Made by a program: the position numbers and the translations under genes
The notes under the pieces: generated by a model
Told to the model about the DNA's origin: nothing
The model's database searches: none
Seen by the model: only the letters and a program-made list of their open reading frames with translations
From: Chitinophagaceae bacterium
GTDB taxonomy: Bacteria; Bacteroidota; Bacteroidia; Chitinophagales; Chitinophagaceae
Length of the DNA: 40,440 nucleotides
Assembly (NCBI GenBank): GCA_025933935.1
Contig: JAICYZ010000007.1
Span: 1 to 40,440, forward strand
Reading direction: 5' to 3'
Part shown: one piece after another, positions 1,390-34,347 of the stretch
Position numbering within the stretch: the stretch's first letter is position 1
Layout of the letters: each line of letters starts with the position of its first letter

Positions 1390-2400
1390 CTACCTCGAAT
1401 TTCCATTTGGAAACAAAACTTTATCGTGCGCCTTATTGAATTCAGCAAGAATTTTGCGAATAATTTCTGTGCGGATTGTAGCTGCTTTTTTTGGAGGAAC
1501 CAGGTAAGTTACCGTTACTTCTACCCAGGTATTATCATTGATTCGGAAACTAACATAAGGATACTCTTTGATCTCCATTTCATCTATCGGTGAGTCTTTT
1601 ACCATTTTTCTTAACTGAGTGACTCGGTCACTCATTTGCGGTCCCAATTCTGTAGATGTCACTTTTTTTATTGTTTTTTCAACAAAATCCAAATCACTTT
1701 CATAAGCGACATGGAAAGGAATCTCGTTCCAGATAAATTTAAAATCCTCCCATGAATAATTAAAAACTGCTGATTGAAGCACGAGGCTGTTTGGAAAGCG
1801 AATCAGCCTTCCACTCGGTAAATCATTCGTAAGGTAATCGCCAGCAAACTCCCAAAGAGTAGTGTCAACATACCCTATCTCTATCACATCGCCTTTAAAA
1901 CCATTAATTTCTATCCGGTCGCTGATGCGGTAAGGCGTTCGGATAATGATATAAATCCACCCAATGAATGATGAAATGGGTGTTTGTAAGGCGAACCCTA
2001 AAATCAGTGAAATCAGTCCTAATGAAAGTGCCGCAGCATACCAGTTTGCAAATAAAAATGAAACGATAAGAATCGCTACGGCTATAATGCTTAATAAGTT
2101 GGTAAGCTGGATTAAGTTGTAGCGATTGTATTTGCCCTTTGATCTTTTTTGAATTTCCAGTTCGATCAGTTTGGTAGCAGATAAAATAAGGACGGCAAAA
2201 AATATCGCAAGAGAAAGCTTTTGAAGTGTCATTCTGTATTTGCCTAAAAGATCAAAAACATGAAGGCGAAATAGAATATAAGCTGTCAGGGAAATTAATG
2301 CAACAGTAATGTAGCTGCCAAGCCAGATAAAAGAAGATTTCTTTTTTATTTTATCTGCCTTTTTGTTTATCTCTTCCTTTTGATTTTGATTAACTTCCAT
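1390..2400 (-). CDS. MscS-type mechanosensitive ion channel
   Basis: A 336-residue inner-membrane protein of the small-conductance mechanosensitive channel family, which opens under membrane tension to release solutes during hypo-osmotic shock. Hydrophobic segments lie near residues 25-45, 58-78 and 96-140. They are followed by the family's pore-helix region GLISLILGFALQTPISSFIG (near 132-151) and the start of the beta domain (RISDRIEINGFKGDVIEIG). The C-terminal soluble domain is about 160 residues. The N-terminus is very lysine-rich and cytosolic. Length is within the range of simple MscS homologues. It is a separate unit 83 bases downstream of the GNAT-nitrilase stop and could still be co-transcribed with it. 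Confidence 0.9.
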   Translation of the reverse strand: MEVNQNQKEEINKKADKIKKKSSFIWLGSYITVALISLTAYILFRLHVFDLLGKYRMTLQKLSLAIFFAVLILSATKLIELEIQKRSKGKYNRYNLIQLTNLLSIIAVAILIVSFLFANWYAAALSLGLISLILGFALQTPISSFIGWIYIIIRTPYRISDRIEINGFKGDVIEIGYVDTTLWEFAGDYLTNDLPSGRLIRFPNSLVLQSAVFNYSWEDFKFIWNEIPFHVAYESDLDFVEKTIKKVTSTELGPQMSDRVTQLRKMVKDSPIDEMEIKEYPYVSFRINDNTWVEVTVTYLVPPKKAATIRTEIIRKILAEFNKAHDKVLFPNGNSR

Positions 2401-2483
2401 AAATTCTGGAATACAGGTGCTTTGAAAAATTACAAGAATAAAGCCAAAGAAGTGAAAGAAGAGAAAGATTGAGAAGTAATAAT

Positions 2484-4013
2484 CTATATCGACGATTGTC
2501 CTTTTAAAACCAATTCGTAAAAATCAGTCCTTCTGTCTTTGAGGTTTCTGACGCTGCCATAAGTATGTAATTCATGCAAAAGAGAAAGATCGACGTCGGC
2601 AATGAGTACCATTTCGGTGTTGGCGGTCGCTTCACTTTTTATTCCGTTTGATGGAAATGCAAAATCGCATGGAGTAAAAACGGCGGATTGTGAATATTGA
2701 ATATCCATGTTTTCCACTTTGGGAAGATTGCCAATACAGCCGGTAATTGCTACAAAGCATTCGTTTTCTATCGCACGGGCCTGCGCACAATAGCGGACAC
2801 GGTTATACGCATTTTGTGTATCCGTCAAAAATGGAACGAATAGAATTTGCATTCCCTGCTCAGCAAGTAATCTTGGCAACTCCGGAAACTCTACATCATA
2901 ACAAATCAGGATGCCTATTTTTCCTGCATCAGTTTCATAAACTTTCAAAGTTTCGCCACCATGTATTCCCCAGAATTTTGCTTCGTCAGGTGTGATGTGA
3001 ATCTTCTCATACTGATCAATATTTCCGTTCCTGTGACACAAATAACCAATATTTTTTAAAACATTTCCTTCAATGCTTGGCACGCTTCCCGTGATGATAT
3101 TTACATTGTATTTGATGGCAAGCTCACGAAAACGTTTTCTGAAATCGGGCGTATATTTTGCCAAAGCACGCATTGCTTCTGCTTCCGACATTTCATTAAA
3201 CTCTGCCAGCAAGGGGCCGTTAAAAAGTTCAGGCAATAAAGCGAAATCACTTTTATAAGCAGAAATAGAATCTATGAAAAATTCTACCTGCGTAAACATT
3301 TCATCCATTGTTTTATATGGACGCATTTGCCATTGAATTAATCCCAAACGCACATACGTTTTTGCGTTGAATAATCCTTTGGCTTCGCTGGTATAATATA
3401 CATTATCCCATTGCAGCAAAGTCGCAAATTCCTTGCTTTGCGCATCTTCAGGCATGTAATTTTTTAATACTTTTTTTACATGAAAATCATTGGCAAGTTG
3501 AAATGAAAGTACCGGGTCATAAATTGCTTTCTGCTTTACTTTTTGAATAAATTCTTTGGGCGAAAGTGTGTCAGCATATTTATGATACTCAGGAATACGG
3601 CCGCCAAAAATGATTGCACGTAAATTCAGATGTTCACACAATTCTTTTCGTGCATCGTACAAACGTCTTCCCAGCCGCAATCCACGGTAATCCGGATGAA
3701 TGAAAATTTCAATCCCATAAAGCACATCTCCGTTTTCAGGATCATGAGTACTGAAGGTATAATTGCCGGTAATTTGTTTGTAAGTATGCGTGTCACCAAA
3801 GCGGTTATAATTTACAATAATAGAAAGCGCACAGCCAACGACTACACCATCTACTTTGATCACAATTTGTCCTTCAGGAAATTTATCAATCAGTTTTTTT
3901 ATTGTTTCCAAACTCCAGTAGTTGCCATTCCAGCGCGGATATGCGGCTTTCATCGCTACCAGCAATTCCTGGAAATTTTCATATTTTAAACTTCCTATCT
4001 CAATTTGTTTCAT
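2484..4013 (-). CDS. GNAT acetyltransferase fused to carbon-nitrogen hydrolase
   Basis: A 509-residue two-domain cytosolic enzyme. Residues about 1-200 form a GNAT N-acetyltransferase domain; the acetyl-CoA loop is YRGLRLGRRLYDARKEL (109-125). Residues about 220-500 form a nitrilase-superfamily amidohydrolase with a full Glu-Lys-Cys triad: E262 (LLPELF), K337 (YEKIHI) and C371 (LICYDVEFPE). The fusion is known in bacteria and the hydrolase half resembles amidases that remove small amide products, but the substrate is not established. Both halves look intact. A terminator-like hairpin just upstream (4033-4063) separates it from the stomatin-like gene, so it likely has its own promoter. Confidence 0.92.
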   Translation of the reverse strand: MKQIEIGSLKYENFQELLVAMKAAYPRWNGNYWSLETIKKLIDKFPEGQIVIKVDGVVVGCALSIIVNYNRFGDTHTYKQITGNYTFSTHDPENGDVLYGIEIFIHPDYRGLRLGRRLYDARKELCEHLNLRAIIFGGRIPEYHKYADTLSPKEFIQKVKQKAIYDPVLSFQLANDFHVKKVLKNYMPEDAQSKEFATLLQWDNVYYTSEAKGLFNAKTYVRLGLIQWQMRPYKTMDEMFTQVEFFIDSISAYKSDFALLPELFNGPLLAEFNEMSEAEAMRALAKYTPDFRKRFRELAIKYNVNIITGSVPSIEGNVLKNIGYLCHRNGNIDQYEKIHITPDEAKFWGIHGGETLKVYETDAGKIGILICYDVEFPELPRLLAEQGMQILFVPFLTDTQNAYNRVRYCAQARAIENECFVAITGCIGNLPKVENMDIQYSQSAVFTPCDFAFPSNGIKSEATANTEMVLIADVDLSLLHELHTYGSVRNLKDRRTDFYELVLKGQSSI

Positions 4014-4032
4014 GCTAAATATTTAAAAAAAT

Positions 4033-4063
4033 AACCTCACAGGTTTCGAAAATCTGTGAGGTT
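4033..4063 (-). terminator. Rho-independent terminator after the stomatin-like gene
   Basis: AACCTCACAG (4033-4042) pairs with CTGTGAGGTT (4054-4063). On the minus strand the hairpin is followed by a T-run, so it ends the transcript of the stomatin-like/NfeD pair before the GNAT-nitrilase gene. Confidence 0.8.
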
Positions 4064-4108
4064 TGATCCATAATTAATGCCAAAAATAAATGCCGATAAA
4101 CAATTACA

Positions 4109-4933
4109 TTACTGATTTTCCGGATTAGTAATCACTACCGGTGATCCGCTTTTATTTTTCTGCGTTTCTGAAAGTGTTTTCATAAATGGTTTTAAGAAAT
4201 CAATCGGAATTGGGAAAATCGTAGTTGAATTATTTTCTGTGGCAATTTCACGAAGTGTTTGCAGATACCGTAAAGTTAATGCGCTAGGTTGCTCGCTCAA
4301 TATCTTAGCTGCATCGCTCAATCGTTGTGACGCCTGGAATTCACCTTCTGCAGAAATCACCTTTGCTCTTCTTTCTCTTTCTGCTTCTGCTTGTTTGGCC
4401 ATAGCGCGCTGCATTTCCTGCGGCAGATCAATTTGTTTTACTTCTACATGCGTCACTTTTACGCCCCACGGTTCTGTTTGCAGATCAATAATTTGTTGAA
4501 GTTTGATATTGATTTTTTCTCTTTGAGAAAGAAGTTCATCAAGCTCTGATTGTCCTAACACACTTCTCAAAGTTGTTTGGGAAAGTTGGGAAGTACCTAC
4601 AAGATAATTTTCAATTTCGATAATTGCTTTTTGAGGATCAATCACCCTGAAATAAATTACCGCATTCACTTTTATAGACACGTTGTCTTGAGTGATCACA
4701 TCCTGGGGCGGAACATCCATTACGACGGTACGTAAACTTACTTTCACCATTTTATCAATTATCGGAATAAGAAGAATAAGTCCCGGACCTTTAACGCCGC
4801 CATCTAAAACCCTACCCAAACGAAAGATAACACCTCTTTCATATTCACGAAGAATTCGAATAGAACTGGCAAGAATATAGAGCACAAATATGATGATAAT
4901 AATGATCGGTAAGCCAATTGGAAATTGTTGCAT
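4109..4933 (-). CDS. slipin / stomatin-like SPFH (band 7) membrane protein
   Basis: A 274-residue membrane-anchored SPFH protein. One N-terminal hydrophobic segment (about residues 5-24) leads into the band 7 domain ([13 protein letters not shown] at about 29-41, then VDPQ-type and [21 protein letters not shown] motifs). A charged helical region rich in Ala, Glu and Arg follows (about 175-215, [22 protein letters not shown] begins it). Slipins form large membrane oligomers and are usually paired with an NfeD-type membrane protease, as here: the nfeD-like gene ends 42 bases upstream on the same strand. The pair is thought to act in membrane quality control. The terminator at 4033-4063 closes the operon. 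Confidence 0.93.
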
Positions 4934-4975
4934 ATTTTAGTTTTTTTTAAATTGAATAATTGGTTGGTTAGAGGT

Positions 4976-6304
4976 TTATAAGTTTTTATCAACAGGCTGA
5001 ACGTATAAAGTAAGTTCATTTATTTCTTTCACAATCACTTTTTCATCAATGCCTATTTTTTCTGAAAGGGAAACAGCGCTCCAGATTTCGCCCATCACGC
5101 TTACTTGTCCGCGAGGATCAAGAGGAGTAAGGGTTACAGCGCTTTGTCCAATCATTGCATTTTCTCCGGATACAGGTTTTGCTCTTTGTGCTCTCAGACC
5201 CATCGTTACAATAAAAAGAAAGAACAAAACGGAAAAAGCAGTTACAGAAAAAATAACTGACCAGGATAAAGAAACAAAATTTTCTACAGGGCTGCTTCGG
5301 AATAAAATCATGGAGCCAAGCAAAACAGAAATGGTTCCGCCTATGGCTAACAAACCATGGCTGATCACTTTTATTTCCAACAGGTAAAGAATAATCCCAA
5401 AAATAATCAGCGCTAATCCCGCATAATTTACCGGCATCGAACTCATGGAATAAAATGCAAGGATCAAACAAATGACGCCAATGATTCCTGGGAAAATAGC
5501 GCCAGGACTAAACAACTCAAACAAAAGACCGTAAAACCCAAGCATCATAATGATGTAAGCAATATTTGGATCGCTGATTCTGCTCAATACTTTTTGAAAG
5601 AACCCCATTTCCAATGTTTCAACAGTTGCATCTTTTGTATGTAAAATCTTCGAGCCGTTTTCCAGTTGAATTTGTTTTCCATCCACCTGTGTCAATAAAT
5701 CTTTTTCATTATTTGCAACGACGTTGATAACATTTTTTTCCAGTGCTTCCTGTTCTGTAATAGCAACGCTGTTTCTGACGGCATCTTCAGCCCACTGAAC
5801 ATTGCGGTTTCTTTTTTCAGCGATCGTTCTTATAAAAGCTGCCGCATCATTTACTATTTTTTCATTTAGTACCGCATCAGATTTCCCCTGCATATCTACA
5901 GGATGAGCTGCGCCAATATTAGTTCCGGGAGCCATGGCGGCGATATTTGCAGAAAGAGTAATGAACACTCCGGCAGAGCCTGCATGAGCGCCGGTAGGAG
6001 AGACAAAAACGATTACTGGTACCGGAGATTGCATGATATGGGTAACAATGTCGCGCGTCGAAGTTAATAAGCCACCGGGGGTATTCAAATTAATAACGAG
6101 GCATTCTGCATTTACTTTACGCGCTTTTTCAATTCCCTGCTGAATAAATTCTGCTGTTGAAGGATTAATGCCTTCATTCACATGTATCGAAATGACTTTC
6201 TGGGAAAATAAAAAAGAAGGAAGTAGAAACAGGATCGCTAGAAAGATCAAAAACCGTTTTATAAACAGTTGATTAGTTAATATGTTTGTAAGCTTTGGCC
6301 GCAT
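4976..6304 (-). CDS. NfeD-family membrane-bound ClpP-class serine protease
   Basis: A 442-residue membrane protein of the long NfeD (NfeD1b) class. A signal or anchor segment occupies about residues 16-34. A ClpP/crotonase-like protease domain follows (about 36-230) with the serine nucleophile at S110 in GAHAGSAGVF and the AHPV segment after it. Four or so hydrophobic helices lie at about 245-375. The C-terminal NfeD OB-fold soluble domain is at about 385-442 (MIGQSAVTLTPLDPRGQVSVMGEIW is its first strand region). In the archaeal homologue the protease cleaves a stomatin C-terminus, and the gene here is directly upstream of a stomatin-like gene, 42 bases apart. First gene of the two-gene operon. 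Confidence 0.92.
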   Translation of the reverse strand: MRPKLTNILTNQLFIKRFLIFLAILFLLPSFLFSQKVISIHVNEGINPSTAEFIQQGIEKARKVNAECLVINLNTPGGLLTSTRDIVTHIMQSPVPVIVFVSPTGAHAGSAGVFITLSANIAAMAPGTNIGAAHPVDMQGKSDAVLNEKIVNDAAAFIRTIAEKRNRNVQWAEDAVRNSVAITEQEALEKNVINVVANNEKDLLTQVDGKQIQLENGSKILHTKDATVETLEMGFFQKVLSRISDPNIAYIIMMLGFYGLLFELFSPGAIFPGIIGVICLILAFYSMSSMPVNYAGLALIIFGIILYLLEIKVISHGLLAIGGTISVLLGSMILFRSSPVENFVSLSWSVIFSVTAFSVLFFLFIVTMGLRAQRAKPVSGENAMIGQSAVTLTPLDPRGQVSVMGEIWSAVSLSEKIGIDEKVIVKEINELTLYVQPVDKNL

Positions 6305-6499
6305 ATGTGTAATATACGCAAACTGAGGTTATAAACAAAAAGAAGTTGCTATTCAATACCGCTGGCAGTAAAGCAACAAATAAGACGAATTGTTTTTATC
6401 GCATCATTTTGATAACCAAATAAAAACGTCGCATCACAGAATCAATGGGAAGATATTTATTGTGTGCCTGCAATTATTTAAAAAGTTTTCTTAACAAAA

Positions 6500-6535
6500 A
6501 ATCCGGTTTAAAATTCTAAATTTTTAAACCGGATT
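6500..6535 (-). terminator. Rho-independent terminator after the sigma54 response regulator
   Basis: AATCCGGTTTAAA (6500-6512) and TTTAAACCGGATT (6523-6535) form a 13-base-pair stem. The minus strand continues into a run of T (bases 6494-6500 are A on the plus strand), so it terminates the transcript that ends at 6581. Confidence 0.85.
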
Positions 6536-6580
6536 CTCTAAAAAATGAGGTGAAAAAAAATCCTTCCCTTTGAACGTTTT

Positions 6581-8005
6581 TTACAACGACTCGTAAATTT
6601 TTATTTTATTATACAAAGTCTTCCGGTCAATTTTTAAAATTTCCGCCGCTTTTGTTTTATTAAAATTTACTTCTTTTAAAACACTCATAATCGTTTCATA
6701 TTCTGCTTTTGCGGCAGCATCTTTCAGATCTACATCTTTATGTTGAGCGTTTGTCGGTATTGATTGTAAACTTTCATTTCCATTTGTATGCACTTCATGC
6801 AAAATAAGCGATTGGGTGATTTCCCACGGCAATACTTTGGAATTGATTTTTCCTTCCTGGGTAAGCAAAACTGCACGGCGCACAACATTTCTGAATTCTC
6901 TTAAATTGCCGGGCCATGAGTAATTCAAAAACATTTCTTCTACATCTTCGTCGTATCCTTCTATATTCTTTTGCAATTCGGCGTTTGTTCTATCCAAGAA
7001 AAACTGTGCAAATAGTGGTATATCGCCTTTTCGATCTCTTAAAGCCGGAAGATTGATAGAAAATTCATTGAACCGGTGATAAAGATCTTCGCGGAATTTT
7101 CCACGCTGATAGGCTTCCTGCAGGTTTTCGTTGGAAGCTACAATGATCCTCACATCTACATCCATTTCTTTGGTGCCACCTACTCTTTTATACTTTCTTT
7201 CCTGGATCACACGGAGTAACGAAGCCTGTACATCTTTTGGTAAATTAGAAACTTCATCGAGGAACAAAGTGCCACCATTTGCCATTTCAAAATGCCCTTC
7301 TTTATCAGTTACTGCTCCGGTAAAAGCCCCTTTTACGTGCCCAAACAATTCGCTTCCTGACAGTTCTTTCGAAAGCGTGCCACAATCCATAGCAACAAAA
7401 GGACGGCCTTTACGGTTACTTGCTTCATGAATCGTTTTTGCAATGACTTCTTTTCCCGTACCGCTTTCACCGTATAAAATAACACTGTAATTGGTAGGCG
7501 CTACAATTTCTATCTGCCGGTATATTTTTGCTGTTTCTCCGTCCTGCCCAATCAGGTATTCGTTATTCAACGATAATTCATAAATTCTTTTTTTCTGAGT
7601 AGCGGGGGCAGGCCTGGCCGCAGGTGCCGGTGTTTCATTACCAGGATTAGCAACTGCTTTTTCGATTACGTTAATTACCTCGTCCGGAATTAATGGTTTG
7701 GTAATATAATCGAAGGCACCCATTTTGATCACGTCTACAGCAGTTTTGATGTCAGAATAGCCGGTAATTATAATGACGATCGTTTTAGGTTTTGCTTCTT
7801 TAATTTTCATCAATACATCTTTCCCATCTTTATCACCCAGGCGGTAATCGCACAATACAATGTCAAAATGAAATTCATTAAATTTTGCAAGTCCTTTTGC
7901 TCCGTTGTGTGCAACTTCCGTCTCATAGCCTTTTTTATTTAAAAACCGGCTAAGCAAAGCGCACATATCGAAGTCATCATCAATAATTAGTATTTTTTTA
8001 TTCAT
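6581..8005 (-). CDS. NtrC-family sigma54-dependent response regulator
   Basis: A 474-residue cytosolic transcription activator with all three NtrC-class modules. The receiver domain (1-120) has the phospho-acceptor D53 (LCDYRLGDKDG) and ITKP at 101-104. A Pro/Ala-rich linker (124-136) follows. The AAA+ domain (about 145-385) has Walker A GESGTGKE at 179-186, an intact GAFTGA loop, Walker B GGTLFLDEVSN and the FREDLYHRF arginine region. The Fis-type helix-turn-helix is at the C-terminus (AAEILKIDRKTLYNKI). GAFTGA is required for contact with sigma54, so it should act on -24/-12 promoters. It follows the BrkB gene by 31 bases. No kinase gene is adjacent; the orphan CHASE3 kinase at 11077-12474 is a candidate partner (inference). 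Confidence 0.95.
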   Translation of the reverse strand: MNKKILIIDDDFDMCALLSRFLNKKGYETEVAHNGAKGLAKFNEFHFDIVLCDYRLGDKDGKDVLMKIKEAKPKTIVIIITGYSDIKTAVDVIKMGAFDYITKPLIPDEVINVIEKAVANPGNETPAPAARPAPATQKKRIYELSLNNEYLIGQDGETAKIYRQIEIVAPTNYSVILYGESGTGKEVIAKTIHEASNRKGRPFVAMDCGTLSKELSGSELFGHVKGAFTGAVTDKEGHFEMANGGTLFLDEVSNLPKDVQASLLRVIQERKYKRVGGTKEMDVDVRIIVASNENLQEAYQRGKFREDLYHRFNEFSINLPALRDRKGDIPLFAQFFLDRTNAELQKNIEGYDEDVEEMFLNYSWPGNLREFRNVVRRAVLLTQEGKINSKVLPWEITQSLILHEVHTNGNESLQSIPTNAQHKDVDLKDAAAKAEYETIMSVLKEVNFNKTKAAEILKIDRKTLYNKIKIYESL

Positions 8006-8036
8006 ATTTATAGAAAGAAATTAAAAGCGTTCAAAG

Positions 8037-8978
8037 TTAATTCAAATCTTTGTTTTTTAATTCGGGTGCAGCAACTGTTTTTTTTTCTGTTCTCACCCAT
8101 TCGGCATATTCATTTGGTAAAATATTTTTCCCATACAATTTAGCATAAACTTTTGTAAATTCGGCACCAAGGTATAAAATAATTGAACTATAATAAACCC
8201 AGACCATTAAAATAATTATGGAGGCCGCTGCTCCATATACCGACATCAGATTACTTTTACGTAAATAAAAGCTGATTGCTAATTTCCCCAAGGTAAAGAA
8301 AACCGCGGTAAAAAAGCCTCCAAATAATACGTCTTTCCACCGGATCCGCGCATCAGGCAATATTTTAAAGATCAGACTGAACAAAAAAGCAGCAACTATA
8401 AATGAAAGAATTGCATCTGAAACCTGGATAAAATACAGGCTGTAACTGGCGATAAACCTTGCAATAAATTTTCCAAAAGCAGCAACCACAGCGTTCAATA
8501 AAAGAGATACAATCATGATAATACCAATGCTTAAAATCAACGAAAATGAAATCAAACGGGTAAGAATTAACTTCCACCATACTTTATGTGGTTTGATACG
8601 CAACCCCCAGATTTTATTGATCGAATCCTGGATTTCTCCAAAAATGCTGGTTGCTCCGATCACCAAAATAATAATGCTTATAACAGTTGCAAAAAAAGTA
8701 TTTCCACTGAGGTGAATATTTTTAATAATATCCTGTATTTGAATGGCAGCGGTGCTTCCAACGAGTTTGTTCAGTTGTTCATATACCCGGCCCTGCATTG
8801 CTTCGCGTCCGAAAAGAAATCCAAATAAGGTGGTGATAACAACCAGTAGCGGAGCGATGGAAAACACAGTATAATAAGCAAGTGAAGCACTGTATTTTAC
8901 AATATTATCTGCGGAAAATTCTTTAAATACGTCTTTAATGACTAAAGAGATTTTTGAAAGATTTTTTTTCGAATGCAT
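8037..8978 (-). CDS. YihY/BrkB family inner-membrane protein
   Basis: A 313-residue polytopic protein of the YihY/virulence-factor BrkB family; its molecular role is not settled, although some members were once called ribonuclease BN. About six hydrophobic segments are seen, beginning with YSASLAYYTVFSIAPLLVVI, which is the family hallmark. The family's GATSIFGEIQDSINKIWG segment is also present. An upstream in-frame ATG at 9026 would add 16 residues; I prefer 8978 because a good -7 box TAACTTTG (plus-strand 8984-8991) lies inside that extension, just before the chosen ATG. It ends 31 bases before the response regulator and may be co-transcribed with it. Confidence 0.88.
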   Translation of the reverse strand: MHSKKNLSKISLVIKDVFKEFSADNIVKYSASLAYYTVFSIAPLLVVITTLFGFLFGREAMQGRVYEQLNKLVGSTAAIQIQDIIKNIHLSGNTFFATVISIIILVIGATSIFGEIQDSINKIWGLRIKPHKVWWKLILTRLISFSLILSIGIIMIVSLLLNAVVAAFGKFIARFIASYSLYFIQVSDAILSFIVAAFLFSLIFKILPDARIRWKDVLFGGFFTAVFFTLGKLAISFYLRKSNLMSVYGAAASIIILMVWVYYSSIILYLGAEFTKVYAKLYGKNILPNEYAEWVRTEKKTVAAPELKNKDLN

Positions 8979-8983
8979 GCAAA

Positions 8984-8991
8984 CAAAGTTA
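8984..8991 (-). promoter_or_regulatory. Bacteroidota -7 promoter box (TAACTTTG) for the BrkB gene
   Basis: On the minus strand TAACTTTG matches the TAnnTTTG consensus exactly and sits 5 bases before the chosen start codon. A clear -33 element at the expected distance was not found. It supports the shorter start and implies a very short leader. Confidence 0.5.
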
Positions 8992-9187
8992 AGGCAAAAG
9001 AATTTTTTGACAGGCTCCTTTCGCAAGCGGTTTAATAAATTATTCTTAAAAGAAATGATGCTAAAATGTTAAATTAATGCTCATTTCGTAGAGGTATTTC
9101 CCCAAGCATATACAGTAATGCTATTTATAAATGGTTCATTATATACTATCTTATAGCATTTATGCACATTTCCCGTAAAAAAATAAT

Positions 9188-9203
9188 TTGGCAAAGTTTT
9201 GAA
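9188..9203 (+). promoter_or_regulatory. TTGGCA-type promoter element upstream of the first small membrane peptide
   Basis: TTGGCA (9188-9193), three bases, then TTTTGAA (9197-9203), ending 48 bases before the start codon at 9252. The same arrangement occurs at similar distances before the ytxH-like gene and both iron-permease-like paralogues. The -24-like half fits sigma54, but the downstream half does not have GC at the right spacing. Confidence 0.4.
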
Positions 9204-9251
9204 TGATACAAATACAGTAATCATATTTTTCAAATTTAAAACCTTTAAAAA

Positions 9252-9401
9252 ATGAGAAGTCTTTTATACATCATCGCGGTAATCTTAATTATTATCTGGG
9301 TGATCTCCTTTCTTGTTTATCATGTGTCCGGTGGTTTAATCCATATTCTCCTGGTAATTGCTGTTATCGCAATCATTTTGGGAGTCATCCGAAGGGCGTG
9401 A
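9252..9401 (+). CDS. lmo0937-type small membrane protein (copy 1)
   Basis: A 49-residue, almost entirely hydrophobic peptide with two transmembrane stretches (about 4-22 and 28-46) around a short VSGGLIH turn, ending in RRA. Size and pattern match the lmo0937 family of small membrane proteins, which is common in stress-inducible clusters but has no defined biochemical role. It is followed 89 bases later by a paralogue of identical length with the same GGLI(H/Y)ILL core. A TTGGCA-type element is 48-64 bases upstream. Confidence in coding is high because two copies conserve the pattern. Confidence 0.8.
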   Translation: MRSLLYIIAVILIIIWVISFLVYHVSGGLIHILLVIAVIAIILGVIRRA

Positions 9402-9438
9402 GATTGCAAACAGGAATCCCCAATATTTGTTGATTTAC

Positions 9439-9459
9439 TGTGGTGAAACATTTCACACA
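9439..9459. promoter_or_regulatory. dyad-symmetric possible operator
   Basis: TGTGGTGAAA-CA-TTTCACACA forms a near-perfect inverted repeat between the two small peptide genes, 31 bases before the second start. There is no T-run, so an operator is more likely than a terminator. The binding protein is unknown. Confidence 0.35.
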
Positions 9460-9490
9460 TCTATTTTTTAATCTTAAATCATAAAACAAA

Positions 9491-9640
9491 ATGGGAAATC
9501 TATTGTATGTTATCGCAGTGATCCTGGTTATAGGTTGGCTGCTCGGACTGTTTGTATGGAATGCAGGCGGTCTCATTTATATTTTATTGGTAGTCGCAGT
9601 AATCCTGGTGTTATTAAGAATCATCAGGGGCGCTGCTTAA
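9491..9640 (+). CDS. lmo0937-type small membrane protein (copy 2)
   Basis: A 49-residue hydrophobic peptide paralogous to the gene at 9252-9401. It begins [19 protein letters not shown], has a WNAGGLIY turn between two membrane helices, and ends IIRGAA. Its stop codon overlaps an in-frame ATG of the next reading frame (TAATG at 9638-9642), although the CsbD start is more likely 24 bases further on. Expression is probably coupled with CsbD. Function is not known beyond the association of this family with stress genes. Confidence 0.8.
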
Positions 9641-9663
9641 TGTTAAAAAAAAAACTTTTTATT

Positions 9664-9855
9664 ATGGAAGACTGGAAATTAAAATTAAACGGAAACTGGA
9701 ATGAAGTCAAAGGAAAAATGAAACAGGCATATGGTGATCTTACCGATGATGACTTAAAACATGAAGAAGGAAAAGATGATGAATTGGTAGGCCGTTTGCA
9801 ACAAAAACTAGGAAAAACAAAAGATCAGGTCATTAGCTGGATTCAAAGCCTTTGA
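9664..9855 (+). CDS. CsbD family stress-response protein
   Basis: A 63-residue hydrophilic protein with the CsbD pattern: [20 protein letters not shown], then [20 protein letters not shown]. CsbD is a sigmaB-controlled general-stress protein in Bacillus and its homologues are abundant stress proteins in many phyla; the mechanism is unknown. An in-frame ATG at 9640 overlapping the previous stop would add MLKKKLFI; I prefer 9664 because family members start directly before the helix with ExxWxxKxxGxWNExKGK. It closes a three-gene unit of small stress proteins and is followed by a strong terminator. Confidence 0.88.
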
Positions 9856-9882
9856 TTTATTTTAATTGATAACTTCAAACTA

Positions 9883-9911
9883 AAACCTCATTCATTTTTT
9901 GCATGAGGTTT
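9883..9911 (+). terminator. Rho-independent terminator after CsbD
   Basis: AAACCTCAT (9883-9891) pairs with ATGAGGTTT (9903-9911), with an 11-base loop and a T-run through 9914. It ends the small-peptide/CsbD transcript 25 bases before the AI-2E family gene. Confidence 0.85.
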
Positions 9912-9935
9912 TTTATGAGTAATTCATAATCGTAA

Positions 9936-11063
9936 ATGAAACTGTATGACCGCTGGCCACTGTATGTCAAATTAGGATTTCAGTTCCTGGTCATTTTTTT
10001 TATTTGCTATTTCATTTACGTTTCACAGAATATTCTGATTCCTTTTGCATTTGCAGTTTTGCTCTCTGTGCTTCTTTTGCCCATCGTTGTTTTTTTGGAA
10101 TCAAAAAACATCGGAAGGGTTTTGTCCATTATCATCGCGTTGTTATGTGCCTCAGGCTTTGTTGCATTTATTATTTATTTGCTTAGCAACCAGATATCGG
10201 TTTTTGTAAACGATGTGCCTTCGATAAAGCAGCATTTGAATGAGCATTTTTTTGCAGCTCAAAATTGGATAAAAAACCGGCTGCACATCTCTGTCAGTGA
10301 ACAAAACCGGTATCTTGCTGAACAGGCAGATAAATTAAAAGCCACCGGTACCGGCTATATCCGCAGCACATTTTTTTCCATTTCAGAAGCGCTGATGCTT
10401 TTGATACTTATGCCGATTTATTGCTTCCTGTTGTTGTATTACCGCCTCCATATCCGGAATTTTTTATTCGCAATTTTCAAAAAAGAATTAAAAGAAGATG
10501 TGCAAAATGTTATCATCAAATCAAGACTGATGATTCGAAATTATATGGTTGGGATCGTAATTGAAATGTCGATAATAGCTTTTGCAAATTCCGTCGGCCT
10601 TTTAATATTAGGAATAAAATACGCGATTTTCTTTGGTGTTTTATCAGCCGTGCTCAATATCATTCCCTACCTGGGAATGTTTACAGCTACTCTTTTTACA
10701 GTCGTAGTTACCTTAACCACTTCCGCACATACAAGCGATGTCATTTGGATCGTGGTAATTTTTTATGGAATTCATATGATAGATGTGAATATCCTCATGC
10801 CCAATATCGTTTCTTCGAGACTTCAGATAAACGTATTAATTTCTGTACTGGGCGTTGTGATTGGAGGAGCGCTTACCGGCATTTCAGGGTTATTTTTATC
10901 GGTGCCCGCTGTGGCATTTATCAAAATACTTTGTGATCAGATAGACAGTTTAAAACCATGGGGAATGCTGATGGGAGCTGATACAGCCGGCATCCCGCAA
11001 GGCCGCATAACAAAAAAGATACGACAACTTTCAAAATTAAGATCGGTCCAAAGAAGAAAGTGA
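9936..11063 (+). CDS. AI-2E family transporter (UPF0118 permease)
   Basis: A 375-residue inner-membrane protein of the AI-2E transporter / UPF0118 family. Hydrophobic helices are predicted near residues 12-30, 32-52, 62-84, 148-172, 205-230, 235-262, 270-290 and 300-330. The family features are the N-terminal pair of helices around PFAFAVLLSVLLLPIV, the long soluble segment (about 85-145), and the C-terminal GVLSAVLNIIPYLGMF and SVLGVVIGGALTGISGLFLS segments. Members export or import small molecules or act as Na+/H+ antiporters; the name does not prove AI-2 transport. The C-terminus is basic. It lies between a terminator and a convergent kinase gene, so it is monocistronic. Confidence 0.88.
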   Translation: MKLYDRWPLYVKLGFQFLVIFFICYFIYVSQNILIPFAFAVLLSVLLLPIVVFLESKNIGRVLSIIIALLCASGFVAFIIYLLSNQISVFVNDVPSIKQHLNEHFFAAQNWIKNRLHISVSEQNRYLAEQADKLKATGTGYIRSTFFSISEALMLLILMPIYCFLLLYYRLHIRNFLFAIFKKELKEDVQNVIIKSRLMIRNYMVGIVIEMSIIAFANSVGLLILGIKYAIFFGVLSAVLNIIPYLGMFTATLFTVVVTLTTSAHTSDVIWIVVIFYGIHMIDVNILMPNIVSSRLQINVLISVLGVVIGGALTGISGLFLSVPAVAFIKILCDQIDSLKPWGMLMGADTAGIPQGRITKKIRQLSKLRSVQRRK

Positions 11064-11076
11064 GTTAAAGCTGATT

Positions 11077-12474
11077 TCAAAAAGTAATTGTAAAAGTGGT
11101 GCCTTTTCCATACTCACTTTCAGCGGAGATATTTCCTTTATGTCCTAAAATAATATTTTGAGAATTTGCAAGTCCAAGTCCATTTCCTTTTTGTTTGGTG
11201 GTGAAATAAGGCTCAAATAAACGGTCGGTTTCTGTCTTCGTCATTCCTTTTCCATTGTCAGAAATGGTTACCATGCAACGGCCATCTTTATTTTCGCTGT
11301 TAATTTTTAAGATCCCGTTTTCATCCATTGCCTCAACGGCGTTAACGATGATATTTAAAAATGCGATTTTAATTTTTTCGATATCCACGGAAATAGGACG
11401 AAGGTTGGTATCATAATTTTTAATGACTTTTATATGGTTGAGTTCAATTCTGTCGCGGGCCAGTTCCATTGTTGCGTCCAGTATATCATTGATAGAAGCA
11501 TCAGCAAAAGTAAGTTCAGCCACACGCGTTGAGTTCAATAAATCGCTTACCAATTGATTGATTCTTTCAGAGTTCCTGCTTATCATGGAAAAAAGCATGT
11601 CGGTGCCTTCATTATTATCGAGCTCAGATTTCAATTGCTCGGTGGCCAGGTTAATATTCGTCAATGGATTTCTCACTTCATGTGCAATGACCCGGGCGAT
11701 TCTTCCGGTTACTACATATTTTTCCAATCGTCTCAGTTCAATTAATTCTGTATTTAGCGTTGAGAGCTGTTTCACCCTTTCCTGCAGCTGGTGTTCATAT
11801 TGCTCGGCTTTTTTGGAAGCAAGGCGCTTCTCCTTATTTTCTTTATTATAAACGACCAATGAATAGATGGTGAGTAAAACGGCAACAATCAGCGAGAGGA
11901 TGTTCAGCGCCTGGATCAGTCCGGAATATTCCGAAACTTTTTGCGATCTTTCGTTCCAGAGGTCACTTTCTTCATTTTTCATTTTAGTGATTTCTTCCTG
12001 AATCACTTTAGTTTTCAGTGCTCCCTGCTTTTCACCTTCTAAAATACCAGGAGTTATTTTACGGGAAGAAAAAAAATCGTGAAGAACATTTTGAATCAAT
12101 AAATACTTTTCATCGATGAAATTATGAAGTGTATCCAGGTTCTTTTGTTGACGTCGGTTGTCTTTTGTTAGTAATTTTAATCTTACGAAAGTGCTGTCGG
12201 TATTGCGGATACTTTGGTCATAATCTGCAAGTAAAGTTTTATCCTGGCTTATAAGATATCCCCTAAATGCAGATTCACCTTTCGCAATAAAAGCAACCAC
12301 ATTATCAAGATTGTGAATTACTTCATTGGTATGACTCATCCAATAATCCTGGCTAACAACTTTTCGGGTAGAAACAAATGTGAGCAGATAAGAAATAAAC
12401 AACAGAAAGAATGCGGCAAGGAAGCCAATCCTCGTACGAGTGGCAATTTTATCAAAAATGTTTTTTACCATCAT
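11077..12474 (-). CDS. CHASE3-domain sensor histidine kinase
   Basis: A 465-residue membrane histidine kinase. Transmembrane helices lie at about 16-36 and 186-208, with a roughly 150-residue extracytoplasmic CHASE3-type helical sensor between them (ESAFRGYLISQDKTLLADYD is typical). A coiled-coil linker (212-250) leads to the HisKA domain with H265 in AHEVRNPLTNINLATEQL, then the HATPase domain with the N box NIIVNAVEAM, G1 DNGKGM and G2 GNGLGLAN. All catalytic motifs are intact. No response regulator is adjacent. It follows the 57-aa lipoprotein by 29 bases and probably shares its transcript. The NtrC-type regulator at 6581-8005 is the only response regulator in the window and a possible partner (inference). 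Confidence 0.93.
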   Translation of the reverse strand: MMVKNIFDKIATRTRIGFLAAFFLLFISYLLTFVSTRKVVSQDYWMSHTNEVIHNLDNVVAFIAKGESAFRGYLISQDKTLLADYDQSIRNTDSTFVRLKLLTKDNRRQQKNLDTLHNFIDEKYLLIQNVLHDFFSSRKITPGILEGEKQGALKTKVIQEEITKMKNEESDLWNERSQKVSEYSGLIQALNILSLIVAVLLTIYSLVVYNKENKEKRLASKKAEQYEHQLQERVKQLSTLNTELIELRRLEKYVVTGRIARVIAHEVRNPLTNINLATEQLKSELDNNEGTDMLFSMISRNSERINQLVSDLLNSTRVAELTFADASINDILDATMELARDRIELNHIKVIKNYDTNLRPISVDIEKIKIAFLNIIVNAVEAMDENGILKINSENKDGRCMVTISDNGKGMTKTETDRLFEPYFTTKQKGNGLGLANSQNIILGHKGNISAESEYGKGTTFTITF

Positions 12475-27166: not shown

Positions 27167-27544
27167 ATGAATCTTACCATCACAGGTCAAAAAAGAGATG
27201 GATATCTCTTTATAGAATCAAAAGGCATTGTTGAAAATGTTGATGAATTAATGGCTCATTCCCGAATGATTTATGAAGAGATCGCCAAACATGATTTTAA
27301 AAAAATATTGGTTTATGAACCGGAAACCAGCCTTCCGCTCGATTTGATCCCTCATTTTGATCTCGTTAAAAGTTATATAGAGCAGTATCCCGCCCATATT
27401 CGTGAACTTACGATCGCCGTCGTCGTTGCTGATCCTTATAAGGAAGTCGTTGCTTCGTGGGAAGCAGTATGCCAAAGCAGGGGGCTTCAATATTATGTCT
27501 TTACTTCTTTAGAAGAAGCGGTTAACTGTTTGATTGAAGAATAA
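27167..27544 (+). CDS. SpoIIAA-like (STAS-type) protein
   Basis: A 125-residue protein with an alternating strand/helix pattern typical of SpoIIAA-like proteins of the STAS superfamily: GYLFIESKGIVENVDELMAH, then KILVYEPETSLPLDLIPHFD, and a third repeat LTIAVVVADPYKEVVASWEA. Members bind other proteins or lipid-like ligands; the partner is not known here. It ends 22 bases before the secreted esterase gene on the same strand, so they probably form an operon. Function is inferred from fold only. Confidence 0.65.
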   Translation: MNLTITGQKRDGYLFIESKGIVENVDELMAHSRMIYEEIAKHDFKKILVYEPETSLPLDLIPHFDLVKSYIEQYPAHIRELTIAVVVADPYKEVVASWEAVCQSRGLQYYVFTSLEEAVNCLIEE

Positions 27545-27566
27545 CAATAAAATTTCAAACAACATC

Positions 27567-28415
27567 ATGCGAAACAACCATTCATTCCAGGCTGCTATCC
27601 TGGCCTTTTTCTGTTTTACCGCCGGTCATGCTTTTTCACAAGCTACCTTCAACATTTGGCCTGGCATCGCTCCGGGATCAGAAAACTGGAAACAAAAAGA
27701 ACAAACGATTAAAAATACGCCGGTCGGCACGGTAATTCTAAATGTGGTAACTCCGACGCTAACTGCGTATCTTCCCGACAAAGGCAAAGCTACCGGAACC
27801 GCAGTTATCATCGCTCCAGGAGGTGCTTGTATTGCTCTTGCCATGAAATCGACTGATGAATTAGCAGCTATGCTTCGCGAAAGAGGCATCGCCACTTTTG
27901 TACTTAAATACCGGTTGCAGGAGAAGAAAGGAGATGGCATGCCGAAAGACCTCAATGAAGATACTGCCTGTCAATATGGAATTGCAGATGCGATTCAGTC
28001 CATCAAATTTATCCGCCAGCATGCTTCAAAATGGGGCATCTCTGTTGACAAAATTGGCATAGTCGGTTTTTCGGCCGGTGGCATGATTGCAAGTGAAGCG
28101 ATGATTCAAAAGGATACTACCGACAGGCCAAGTTTTGCGGCACTCATTTACGGAGCTCCGTTTGCTTCCATGCCGGTAATTCCGTCAAGTCTGCCACCGG
28201 TTTTTATGTCCTGGGCGCAGGATGACATGGAAGCCGGCTATGCAATGGACCGCTTTTATAAAGCTTTGATCTCAGCCGGATCTAAACCGGAAGCACATAT
28301 TTTCAGCGCAGGCGGCCACGCCTTCGCAGCAAAAAAGCAAGGTACCAGCAGCGATTACTGGGCAGATGATTTTTACCACTGGATGCAGGCAGAAGGATTT
28401 GCCGGTAACAAATGA
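27567..28415 (+). CDS. secreted alpha/beta hydrolase (xylan esterase / BD-FAE-like)
   Basis: A 282-residue secreted serine hydrolase. The signal peptide spans about residues 1-25 (AILAFFCFTAGHAFS). The oxyanion segment is APGGACIALAMKS, and the nucleophile elbow is GFSAGG. The catalytic Asp is likely in WAQDDMEAGY, and the His in FSAGGHAFA. The fold resembles acetyl-xylan or feruloyl esterases found in polysaccharide-degrading Bacteroidota. The frame's first ATG (27534) overlaps the previous gene; the start at 27567 places the signal sequence correctly. Co-transcribed with the SpoIIAA-like gene. No carbohydrate-utilisation genes (SusC/D) are adjacent. Confidence 0.88.
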   Translation: MRNNHSFQAAILAFFCFTAGHAFSQATFNIWPGIAPGSENWKQKEQTIKNTPVGTVILNVVTPTLTAYLPDKGKATGTAVIIAPGGACIALAMKSTDELAAMLRERGIATFVLKYRLQEKKGDGMPKDLNEDTACQYGIADAIQSIKFIRQHASKWGISVDKIGIVGFSAGGMIASEAMIQKDTTDRPSFAALIYGAPFASMPVIPSSLPPVFMSWAQDDMEAGYAMDRFYKALISAGSKPEAHIFSAGGHAFAAKKQGTSSDYWADDFYHWMQAEGFAGNK

Positions 28416-28473
28416 AATCCCACAGCCGCCATTGAAACGCCGTAGGCATTCGCACCGATCGTGCAACAGAAAA

Positions 28474-28494
28474 TTTGTCTCACAGAGTGACAAA
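28474..28494. promoter_or_regulatory. dyad TTTGTC-N9-GACAAA upstream of hsp20, possible activator site
   Basis: TTTGTC (28474-28479), nine bases, GACAAA (28489-28494). Its centre is about 62 bases before the -24 box and about 87 before the predicted transcription start, the usual distance for a sigma54 activator site. A further GACAAAA half-site lies at 28509-28515. It is not a CIRCE element, which has TTAGCACTC arms. Confidence 0.45.
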
Positions 28495-28543
28495 TTTTTT
28501 TAAAAAAAGACAAAATTTCTCACAAGATAAATTTCAATTAGCG

Positions 28544-28560
28544 ATGGCATTTAAGTTGCA
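28544..28560 (+). promoter_or_regulatory. sigma54 -24/-12 promoter of hsp20
   Basis: ATGGCATTTAAGTTGCA: GG (28546-28547) and GC (28558-28559) are separated by exactly 10 bases, and both TGGCA and TTGCA are present as in the TGGCACG-N4-TTGCA consensus. The start codon is 49 bases past it. This is the best sigma54 site I found in the window. Confidence 0.7.
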
Positions 28561-28593
28561 CATTTCTTTTCAAAATTATTTATTAACCAAATT

Positions 28594-28602
28594 AAAAGGA
28601 GG
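28594..28602 (+). promoter_or_regulatory. strong Shine-Dalgarno site before hsp20
   Basis: AAAAGGAGG, six bases before the ATG at 28609. A site this complementary to 16S rRNA is unusual beside the other genes here and suggests high translation once transcribed. Confidence 0.85.
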
Positions 28603-28608
28603 TACATT

Positions 28609-29061
28609 ATGAAACTTTTAAAAGGAAATGGAAACTTAATGAATCAGATGCCCCTGCTTTTTGATGACATTTTTAACAGAGATGTTTTCAATTGGGGACA
28701 ATCTAATTTTTCAAACACAAACACTACCATTCCGGCAGTAAATATTAAAGAAACGCCGGAAAATTTCCAGGTGGAAGTTGCTGCCCCGGGAATGAGTAAA
28801 AAAGATTTTAAAATAGAACTGGATGGCAATATGTTGACCATCAGTTCCGAAAAAACCAACGAGCGGGAAGATAGCGAAAATGAGAAATACTCCCGCAAAG
28901 AGTTCAGTTATCAGTCATTTTACCGGACTTTTAATCTTGCAAAAGACGTAGTTGATGTTGAAAAGATCCAGGCTAAATATGAAAACGGCTTATTGCAGCT
29001 AATGATCCCTAAAAAAGAAGAAGCAAAGCAAAAGCCACCGAGGCTCATTCAAATTTCTTAA
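28609..29061 (+). CDS. small heat-shock protein, Hsp20/alpha-crystallin family
   Basis: A 150-residue chaperone that binds unfolding proteins. The alpha-crystallin domain (about 45-138) starts PAVNIKETPENFQVEVAAPG, includes FKIELDGNMLTISSEK and the SYQSFYRTFNLA strand, and ends with KYENGLLQLMIPKKEE, which holds the I/V-x-I/V-type motif region (MIP). The N-terminal arm is short and the C-terminal tail basic. It forms oligomers in the cytosol. It has the clearest sigma54 promoter in the window, an upstream dyad and a strong ribosome-binding site, and is followed by its own terminator, so it is a single-gene stress unit. Confidence 0.96.
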   Translation: MKLLKGNGNLMNQMPLLFDDIFNRDVFNWGQSNFSNTNTTIPAVNIKETPENFQVEVAAPGMSKKDFKIELDGNMLTISSEKTNEREDSENEKYSRKEFSYQSFYRTFNLAKDVVDVEKIQAKYENGLLQLMIPKKEEAKQKPPRLIQIS

Positions 29062-29080: not shown

Positions 29081-29108
29081 AAAAGAGTTGCAATACGCAG
29101 CTCTTTTT
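29081..29108 (+). terminator. Rho-independent terminator after hsp20
   Basis: AAGAGTTGC pairs with GCAGCTCTT around the loop AATAC, with one T-G pair, followed by a run of eight T. It lies 20 bases past the hsp20 stop. Confidence 0.85.
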
Positions 29109-31211: not shown

Positions 31212-31586
31212 ATGTTGACAAAATCAAAAGCCTTCAGTGGTTTTTCCGTAGATGATTTGCAAAAAGCAAAAGCCTTTTATCAGGAAATACTCGGGTTACA
31301 TGTTGCCGATACTCCCATGGGGGTAATGGAAATTCACCCGGAAGGAGGAAATAAAATAATCGTCTATCCAAAGCCAGATCATGTACCCGCGACATTTACC
31401 GTTCTTAATTTTCCGGTAACAAACATCGAAGAAACAGTAGACGAACTGAGCGGCAAAGGAGTGTCTTTTGAGCAATATGGCGGCCAGATACAAACAGATG
31501 AAAAGGGAATCTGCCGGAACGGTGGCATCTCAATTGCATGGTTCAAAGATCCTGCAGGAAACATCCTTTCGCTGATTGAAGATTAA
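31212..31586 (+). CDS. VOC family protein (glyoxalase/bleomycin resistance-like)
   Basis: A 124-residue vicinal-oxygen-chelate protein with two beta-alpha-beta-beta-beta repeats: FSGFSVDDLQKAKAFYQEIL opens the first and TVLNFPVTNIEETVDELSGK the second. It ends AWFKDPAGNILSLIED, the usual VOC end with its acidic metal ligand. The first half lacks a clear His ligand, so an enzymatic role such as glyoxalase is uncertain. Substrate is not predictable. A -7-like TACGTTTG lies 20 bases before the start, within a short gap after the terminator. Confidence 0.85.
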   Translation: MLTKSKAFSGFSVDDLQKAKAFYQEILGLHVADTPMGVMEIHPEGGNKIIVYPKPDHVPATFTVLNFPVTNIEETVDELSGKGVSFEQYGGQIQTDEKGICRNGGISIAWFKDPAGNILSLIED

Positions 31587-33975: not shown

Positions 33976-34347
33976 TCACAACTCCTCTTCCCTTTCCAGC
34001 ATCAGAACCGCGCTTTGCGGTACAATAAAATATTTATCTCCTTCATACATCACTTCTGTTGCAGCGCCCATCAGAAAAATAGCCAGATCTCCTTCTTTCG
34101 CCTGCAAGGGAATGTATTTTATCTTTTCTTCTTCACCTTTCCAAGGTTCATCTTCAACCGGCATAGGAATGGCATAACCCGGGCCCGCCTTGATCACATA
34201 TCCCTGTTGCACTTTTTCTTTTTCCTGTACTCCCGGAGGCAGGTAAAGCCCGCTTGCAGTTCTATCGTCCGGTCGCGCAGGTTTTATCAACAACCTGTCG
34301 CCGATTACGATCAGTTTCTTAAGTTTATTATCGATGGTGATGTGCAT
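33976..34347 (-). CDS. orphan GroES-like co-chaperonin
   Basis: A 123-residue Cpn10-fold protein: IGDRLLIKPARPDDRTASGLYLPPG, where the mobile loop is SGLYLPPG, then VQQGYVIKAGPG, AKEGDLAIFLMGAATEVMYEGDKYFIV and a closing LML. It is longer than standard GroES (about 95 residues), through a charged insert (residues about 64-75, PVEDEPWKGEEE) and a 12-residue N-terminal extension. No groEL gene is near, whereas the housekeeping groES is normally followed by groEL, so this is probably a second, divergent copy. The -7 box is at 34362-34369. Confidence 0.85.
   Translation of the reverse strand: MHITIDNKLKKLIVIGDRLLIKPARPDDRTASGLYLPPGVQEKEKVQQGYVIKAGPGYAIPMPVEDEPWKGEEEKIKYIPLQAKEGDLAIFLMGAATEVMYEGDKYFIVPQSAVLMLEREEEL

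Follow-up and report, generated by a model that had tools for sequence, protein, structure and literature searches.

The hsp20 gene of a Chitinophagaceae bacterium is probably transcribed from a sigma54 promoter whose putative enhancer consists of three phased boxes, read by an AAA+ activator that lacks a receiver domain (the L003 type), as part of a chaperone regulon extending across the class Bacteroidia, with a strong Shine-Dalgarno (SD) site as an extra feature of its mRNA. The window, meaning the whole 40,440-nt stretch of DNA that was analysed, corresponds to contig C399 in a draft genome of 4.1 Mb and 87.7% completeness. To our knowledge, no master regulator of chaperones is established in Bacteroidia, and the boxes shared between chaperone genes point to one stress switch common to them, so far uncharacterised.

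The gene (28609-29061, forward strand) encodes a small heat-shock protein of 150 amino acids that belongs to the Hsp20/alpha-crystallin family (PF00011, E 2.3e-24, 85.9 bits against a cut-off of 20.8). It is preceded by an esterase-like gene (27534-28415) and followed by a terminator-like hairpin with a T run, found in the terminator scan (29081-29107, forward strand). The sigma54 core promoter TGGCATTTAAGTTGCA (-24/-12; 28545-28560, forward strand) matches TGGCAY-N5-TTGCW exactly and carries the GG-N10-GC spacing. This strict pattern occurs five times in the bacterium's own genome and its reversed control also five times, so by itself the string does not rise above chance, and a comparison across genomes was needed. 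In that comparison, a sigma54-like site (score of at least 8.7, no more than 170 nt upstream) precedes 67 of the best 80 named hsp20 orthologs, against 37 of 1580 dinucleotide shuffles, and this conservation makes the site credible. The named orthologs are the best 80 of at least 575 relatives (at least 594 stretches) and come from Ginsengibacter, Ferruginibacter, Segetibacter, Dyadobacter, Flavobacterium, Chryseobacterium, Chitinophaga, Sphingobacterium and others; 17 hsp20 orthologs were also drawn from 59 relatives, with paralogs and one cut-off sequence (L046) left out of the counts. RpoN itself is encoded in the genome (G000:C299, PF04552, E 1.5e-52) and was found in all 18 genomes tested, this one included. 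Transcription from sigma54 promoters begins about 12 nt past the GC, here at 28558-28559, which would place the start near 28571 on the forward strand. At the level of sequence, the comparison bears out what a preliminary description of the locus had proposed, a promoter of the sigma54 type preceded by an activator-like region. The absence of CIRCE noted there holds as well: a forward-strand scan of the window with the familiar, self-complementary consensus (TTAGCACTC-N9-GAGTGCTAA) found no element with four or fewer mismatches, and control by HrcA and CIRCE was rejected.

The nature of the upstream element differs from what had been described. The proposed operator, a dyad TTTGTC-N9-GACAAA at 28474-28494, is present to the letter and recurs nowhere else in the draft genome without a mismatch; once one mismatch is tolerated, it matches at 23 places and the reversed control pattern at 41, and looser copies therefore reflect chance. 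Conservation among relatives had been set beforehand as a check, and the literal dyad occurs in none of the 17 relatives' hsp20 promoters and in none of the best 80 named orthologs. As a conserved unit it was rejected, and conservation lies instead in the underlying boxes: the dyad is best read as the right half of one box and the left half of the next in a row of three 15-bp palindromes (nTGAMAAWTTKTCAn) that begin at 28467, 28487 and 28507, exactly 20 bp apart and therefore on one face of the helix. Box 1, CAGAAAATTTGTCTC (28467-28481), is centred at about -97 from the predicted start and scores 11.87 (10.41 with a model built from Flavobacteriia). Box 2, GTGACAAATTTTTTT (28487-28501, centre about -77), is the lowest-scoring of the three (8.13 and 8.86), and box 3, AAGACAAAATTTCTC (28507-28521, centre about -57; 9.75 and 9.23), had been missed.

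To obtain the box model, the 120 nt that precede -24 in 67 hsp20 promoters were submitted to palindromic EM with 60 random seeds, of which the four best, once refined, gave one motif of about 11 bits. Thirteen of the best 80 orthologs were kept out of training for a sigma54-like score below 8.7 or for N (L207, L210, L213, L221, L230, L232, L237, L238, L239, L242, L245, L255 and L256), and the window's own promoter is absent from the training set, which holds other genomes only. Besides the triple with 20 + 20 bp spacing, no other phased triple occurs in the 40-kb window, and one of 100 shuffled windows contains one. With the model trained on Flavobacteriia only (19 promoters), the boxes at 28467, 28487 and 28507 rank 4th, 12th and 11th in the window. 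At least two boxes occur in 63 and at least three in 41 of the 67 training promoters taken from the best 80 orthologs, and of the 129 gaps between adjacent boxes 64 (0.50) measure 18-23 bp, compared with 0.15 for random placement. A point against this reading is that the boxes are AT-rich and weakly specific, with 43 matches that score at least 7 within the 40 kb of the window. What marks an upstream activating sequence is a phased set of palindromes ahead of -24, here with conserved spacing, and the three boxes form a putative enhancer of the sigma54 promoter to which an activator would bind.

The same arrangement recurs at other chaperone genes that were not used in training. At htpG, a box scoring at least 7 was present in 18 of 20 genes (shuffles: mean 3.4, maximum 7), and a -24/-12 match by regular expression in 16 of 20, one of which (L164) belongs to a divergent HtpG and may be chance; the htpG genes of G141 and G095 had no box by the hsp20-trained model. 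At dnaK, all 28 genes carry a sigma54 site and 27 a box, compared with shuffles that hold both at a mean of 0.28 and a maximum of 3. The groES genes have a box in 13 of 13 cases and a sigma54 score of at least 8.7 in 11. Among 69 other genes, 12 have a box within 220 nt, three a sigma54-like site and one both. In the bacterium itself, htpG is preceded by a box ATGTCATGATGACAG and then a sigma54 site TGGCATTTCTTTTGTA, and dnaK likewise has both elements; the box model also held at htpG in five of five genomes of the genus, and at dnaK. A box of 8.0 was found at lon of G013, and none of 6.5 or more at the second hsp20 and pgi of that genome or at a small gene of G014. The searches for htpG and hsp20 covered 29 of the 32 genomes with only two activator homologs, together with G144 (30 genomes; the congeners G102, G131 and G134 were left out), and weak non-HtpG matches (L165-L167) and long G085 proteins (L183, L190 and L191) were dropped. 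Two results from these genes count against the preferred reading: of the 21 hsp20 genes from two-activator genomes only 13 have a box that scores at least 7 (shuffles: mean 2.9, maximum 6), and the box at htpG, as at some dnaK genes, is centred only about 20 nt from -24, which is near for a classical enhancer. Such enhancers typically sit about 90 nt upstream of -24, and many dnaK promoters have a second box at that distance (e.g. L313, L317, L323, L328 and L329). A simpler scan of eight genomes for a half-site ahead of a sigma54 string, (TGTC or GACA)-N12-42-TGGCAY-N5-TTG, gave 26 + 38 matches and its reversed controls 37 + 35 (64 vs 72), hence no excess; its intergenic matches provided leads for the box model. 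Taken at the level of sequence, the boxes at htpG, dnaK, groES and hsp20 point to one class-wide chaperone regulon in Bacteroidia. Of the combination that had been called unusual for Bacteroidota, the pairing of sigma54 site and upstream box is frequent at these four genes of Bacteroidia.

Eight PF00158 matches in the bacterium's genome include four clear sigma54 activators: L001 (REC-AAA+, no HTH), L002 (REC-AAA+-HTH), L003 (AAA+-linker-HTH, no REC) and the NtrC-type regulator of the window (6581-8005; REC-AAA+-HTH, with a Fis-type HTH and a sigma54-contact domain). The last of these had been suggested as the activator of hsp20 and finds no support, as boxed genomes exist that have no such protein; the orphan, PspF-like L003 type is a better candidate. 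A survey of 89 evenly drawn Bacteroidia genomes, with counts made among the best matches listed, found L003-type orthologs (51-72% identity, some partial) in 87, and a 95%-identical fragment adjoining a run of N in G144 brings the total to 88; G109, 95% complete, was the sole genome of the 89 in which the protein was not found. Among the matches listed, 32 of the 89 genomes have only two activator homologs, and in seven of these (G061, G064, G083, G096, G118, G137 and G141) the second activator has no HTH by Pfam. Boxed chaperone promoters are present in G061, G064, G083, G118 and G137, which leaves the L003-type protein as the only DNA-reading sigma54 activator found there. The second activator of G095 does have an HTH and that of G097 did not resolve, both of which weigh against this assignment. 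G109 encodes one HTH-less activator of the L001 type and one of 462 aa, and its dnaK is the one of 28 that has no box, whereas G141, a congener that possesses the L003-type protein, has boxes at dnaK. G109 also gave no htpG or hsp20 match, a lack that is not special since 9 of the 30 genomes had no htpG match and 12 no hsp20 match. That G109 is a single case, is 95% complete and still has the 462-aa activator counts against the preferred reading.

Further context comes from the gene and the protein. Downstream of the L003-type gene lie LptE-, TPR-, SecG-, GroES- and GroEL-like genes (named by eye), with groEL no more than 5 kb away in 13 of 20 genomes; the bacterium's own genome and six others are those in which it is not. 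In an alignment of 23 orthologs, the HTH segment GISERTLYRK shows no variation. By elimination and by context, the L003-type protein is therefore the best candidate activator. Upstream of the bacterium's own L003-type gene, no box or sigma54 site was seen by eye, a point against the preferred reading. PspF is the phage-shock activator of enterobacteria, and the L003 type shares its architecture, an AAA+ sigma54 activator domain with no receiver domain and a C-terminal Fis-type HTH; it differs in its linker, which is about 100 residues long and contains a conserved stretch, and in the placement of its gene, which stands beside LptE-, SecG- and GroESL-type genes (by eye) in most genomes examined. 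Against the PspF equivalog TIGR02974 it scores 270.9 bits, below the cut-off of 443.55, and for this reason it is not filed as PspF; it reached no other NCBIfam equivalog cut-off either. The conserved linker stretch, SERELLYKVLFDMKKDxxDLKK at about residues 283-303 of L003, has a hydrophobic core with basic flanks and is possibly a partner-binding site. The GAFTSA loop letters were tried as a marker of the L001 type and rejected, because the L003-type protein of G114 has GSFTSA and the letters are thus not diagnostic.

Based on these comparisons, hsp20 would be transcribed from the sigma54 promoter at 28545-28560, and the boxes at 28467, 28487 and 28507 would act on it as an enhancer. They are likely bound by the L003-type protein, whose linker carries a presumably helix-like conserved stretch between the AAA+ sigma54-contact domain and the HTH. 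Three dimers bound side by side could help to assemble the hexameric ATPase and thereby open the promoter, and the same boxes at htpG, dnaK and groES would extend this control to a class-wide regulon. Protein-folding stress may free the activator, perhaps through the linker, and the strong SD of the hsp20 mRNA may favour ribosomes with a free anti-SD tail. A heat-shock sigma factor, RpoH, is the familiar case of one regulator governing many chaperone genes. The switch proposed here would resemble it in this respect and differ from it in that the sigma factor is RpoN and specificity would come from the activator and its boxes. Perhaps the cytosolic heat-shock response of Bacteroidia as a whole runs through sigma54, with the orphan PspF-like activator (beside groESL in 13 of 20 genomes) as the counterpart of RpoH, gated by chaperones or misfolded proteins, possibly at the linker stretch, and switching on hsp20, htpG, dnaK and groESL via phased TGNMA-N3-TKNCA boxes, while the hsp20 SD adds a second layer for ribosomes with an unmasked anti-SD; we offer this wider picture tentatively and rate its chances at slightly below even.

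With promoter and boxes both taken as real, the boxes might instead be recognised by some other protein that binds DNA, as a repressor or in an architectural role, and sigma54 would be driven by an HTH-less L001-type activator with no enhancer. Activators of this kind are common in these genomes, many RpoN activators of Bacteroidetes have no enhancer-binding domain and are presumably enhancer-independent (PMC3372290), and boxes about 20 nt from -24, as at htpG and dnaK, would suit a repressor. Yet the phasing by two helical turns at 30-100 bp upstream resembles an activator array, the L003-type HTH is nearly invariant just as the box is widely conserved, the L003-type gene adjoins groESL in 13 of 20 genomes, and G109 has the L001 type while its dnaK box is absent, so that we regard this alternative as unlikely. 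Still less probable is the idea that in the bacterium's own genome the hsp20 boxes are bound by a REC-type activator, be it L002 or the regulator at 6581-8005. Both have the requisite Fis-type HTH and sigma54-contact domain, and the latter lies on the same contig, 20 kb from hsp20, but boxes are kept in genomes with no REC-HTH activator (the five boxed two-activator genomes named above, G061 to G137), and no half-site pair was seen by eye upstream of either gene.

On another view, the dyad would terminate transcription of the esterase-like gene that precedes it and play no role in the control of hsp20. As RNA, the dyad can fold into a stem of 12 bp with a T run behind it, and the 130-nt stretch folds better than its shuffles (z -2.70, 2 of 200). 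The stem is poor in G+C, however, and missing from the output of the terminator scan, and the literal dyad is not conserved although the boxes are, also in the company of other upstream sequences; we consider this reading very improbable, though the dyad may perhaps combine a terminator role with one in hsp20 control. The idea that a sigma54-like string and AT-rich palindromes came together by chance, with no function at all, could appeal to the strict string being no commoner in the genome than its reversed control and to the abundance of single boxes in AT-rich DNA. It is hardly credible in view of the conservation in 67 of the best 80 promoters, the phased triple and the recurrence at the untrained htpG, dnaK and groES genes. 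An enhancer read by the L003-type protein is retained as the preferred reading.

The SD site of hsp20, AAAAGGAGGT (28594-28603, forward strand, exact letters), ends 5 nt before the ATG at 28609, and the AAAAGGAGG reported ahead of the start is confirmed. Among the best 80 orthologs, GGAGG precedes hsp20 in 43 of 59 outside Flavobacteriia and in 0 of 21 inside, counts in which start codons preceded by an SD were favoured; a recount with starts set by alignment alone gave 33 of 47 and 0 of 15. The window's hsp20 and its relatives have GGAGG in 15 of 18 cases, compared with a background of 1 of 125 among other ORFs of hsp20 loci and 1 of 31 among other ORFs of the window. The strong SD described for this gene is thus real and unusual against the background of these genomes. 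GGAGG was found at 0 of 20 htpG genes and at 1 of 21 hsp20 genes of two-activator genomes. The anti-SD of Bacteroidia ribosomes is reported to be buried in a pocket made up of bS21, bS18 and bS6, and reporters with a strong SD to rise upon loss of bS21 (PMC9976891). Chitinophagia have an intact CCUCC but 1-2% SD genes (PMC10783764). Genes translated by bS21-free ribosomes would combine a strong SD with a response to loss of bS21; hsp20 has the SD, which may serve ribosomes with a free anti-SD tail. Some Weeksellaceae, e.g. a Chryseobacterium, have no conserved CCUCC (PMC10783764), which may explain the Chryseobacterium entries in the count. The rpsU gene of Flavobacterium johnsoniae resembles hsp20 in having a strong SD where most mRNAs have none; it is read by ribosomes lacking bS21, and its SD, described as nearly unique in Flavobacteriales, serves bS21 autoregulation (PMC9976891). 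The SD of hsp20, in contrast, marks the gene outside Flavobacteriia, and its use is putative. Alongside rpsU, it may offer a second naturally occurring case in which to test specialised translation among mostly SD-free bacteria.

An RNA thermometer (ROSE, fourU) was rejected for hsp20, as the 5' UTR is unstructured (fold z 0.42) and matches no Rfam family, its six matches with E up to 5 all lying far under the gathering scores. The only T-rich stretch able to pair with the SD, judged by eye, is at 28563-28570 and precedes the predicted start. The UTR also contains a motif TTATTAACCA (28580-28589, forward strand) identified in a comparison of T[AT]AAC, which occurs at -40 to -12 in 52 of the best 80 hsp20 orthologs and in 13 of 114 other ORFs. 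This motif (TTATTAACC / TTGTTTAAC) stands at a nearly constant distance ahead of hsp20, and Flavobacteriia devoid of the SD have it too.

Sigma54 control of Bacteroidota chaperones has been predicted before. GroEL, GroES, IbpA (COG0071), GrpE, DnaK, DnaJ, HSP90 (COG0326) and the proteases COG0542, COG0466 and COG1066 are reported to be enriched among the sigma54 targets predicted for classes of Bacteroidota (PMC12316311, PLoS One 2025), and the same article cites work on Blattabacterium (its ref. 80) for sigma54-dependent grpE and groES. The regulon described there overlaps in its chaperone targets with the one proposed here; the article states that activator specificity was not available for all organisms studied, and its relevant sections assign neither an enhancer sequence nor an activator to these genes. 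The box, its phasing, the candidate activator and the SD are what the present comparison adds to the prediction in PMC12316311. Among the licensed PMC papers listed, judged by title and the beginning of the abstract, none besides that article dealt with a chaperone enhancer or activator of Bacteroidota and none with an SD at a Bacteroidota hsp20, and the sections consulted of PMC4641369 and PMC9723584 hold nothing on a chaperone enhancer, its activator or an hsp20 SD. What is proposed is ordinary sigma54 logic put to use as a chaperone switch with a box of its own and an activator family that is unnamed in the libraries searched. With the boxes and one conserved candidate activator, the published prediction becomes a directly testable model of one protein, one site and at least four target genes, in species open to laboratory manipulation.

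Several other loci drew attention. A conserved sigma54 site lies about 240 nt upstream of a protein beginning MSDNNTPQIFQTDRPTRWKRFKW in L084 (G000:C386:1824-1874), L062 and L068, and the two of these that were scored, L084 and L062, have a box of 9-10 about 75 nt further upstream; this protein is possibly a further member of the regulon. The window also encodes, at 33976-34347 on the reverse strand, a stand-alone protein of 123 aa that was judged by eye to be GroES-like; the 220 nt upstream of it hold no box of 5 or more. The window holds a second exact sigma54 string, TGGCATCTCAATTGCA at 31523-31538, which falls within a glyoxalase-like ORF and is probably chance. An intergenic string, TGGCATCAAAATTGCA, precedes a secreted-protein-like ORF elsewhere in the genome (L010, G000:C142:50771-50786); no TGTC or GACA half-sites were seen upstream of it by eye, and it is perhaps the target of another activator. 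Finally, the region at 1390-12474 of the window combines mechanosensitive-channel-, stomatin/SPFH-, NfeD-, YihY- and AI-2E-permease-like genes (named by eye) with the REC-AAA+-HTH regulator at 6581-8005 and a CHASE3 histidine kinase at 11077-12474 (both Pfam-scanned), and this cluster looks like an envelope-stress module.
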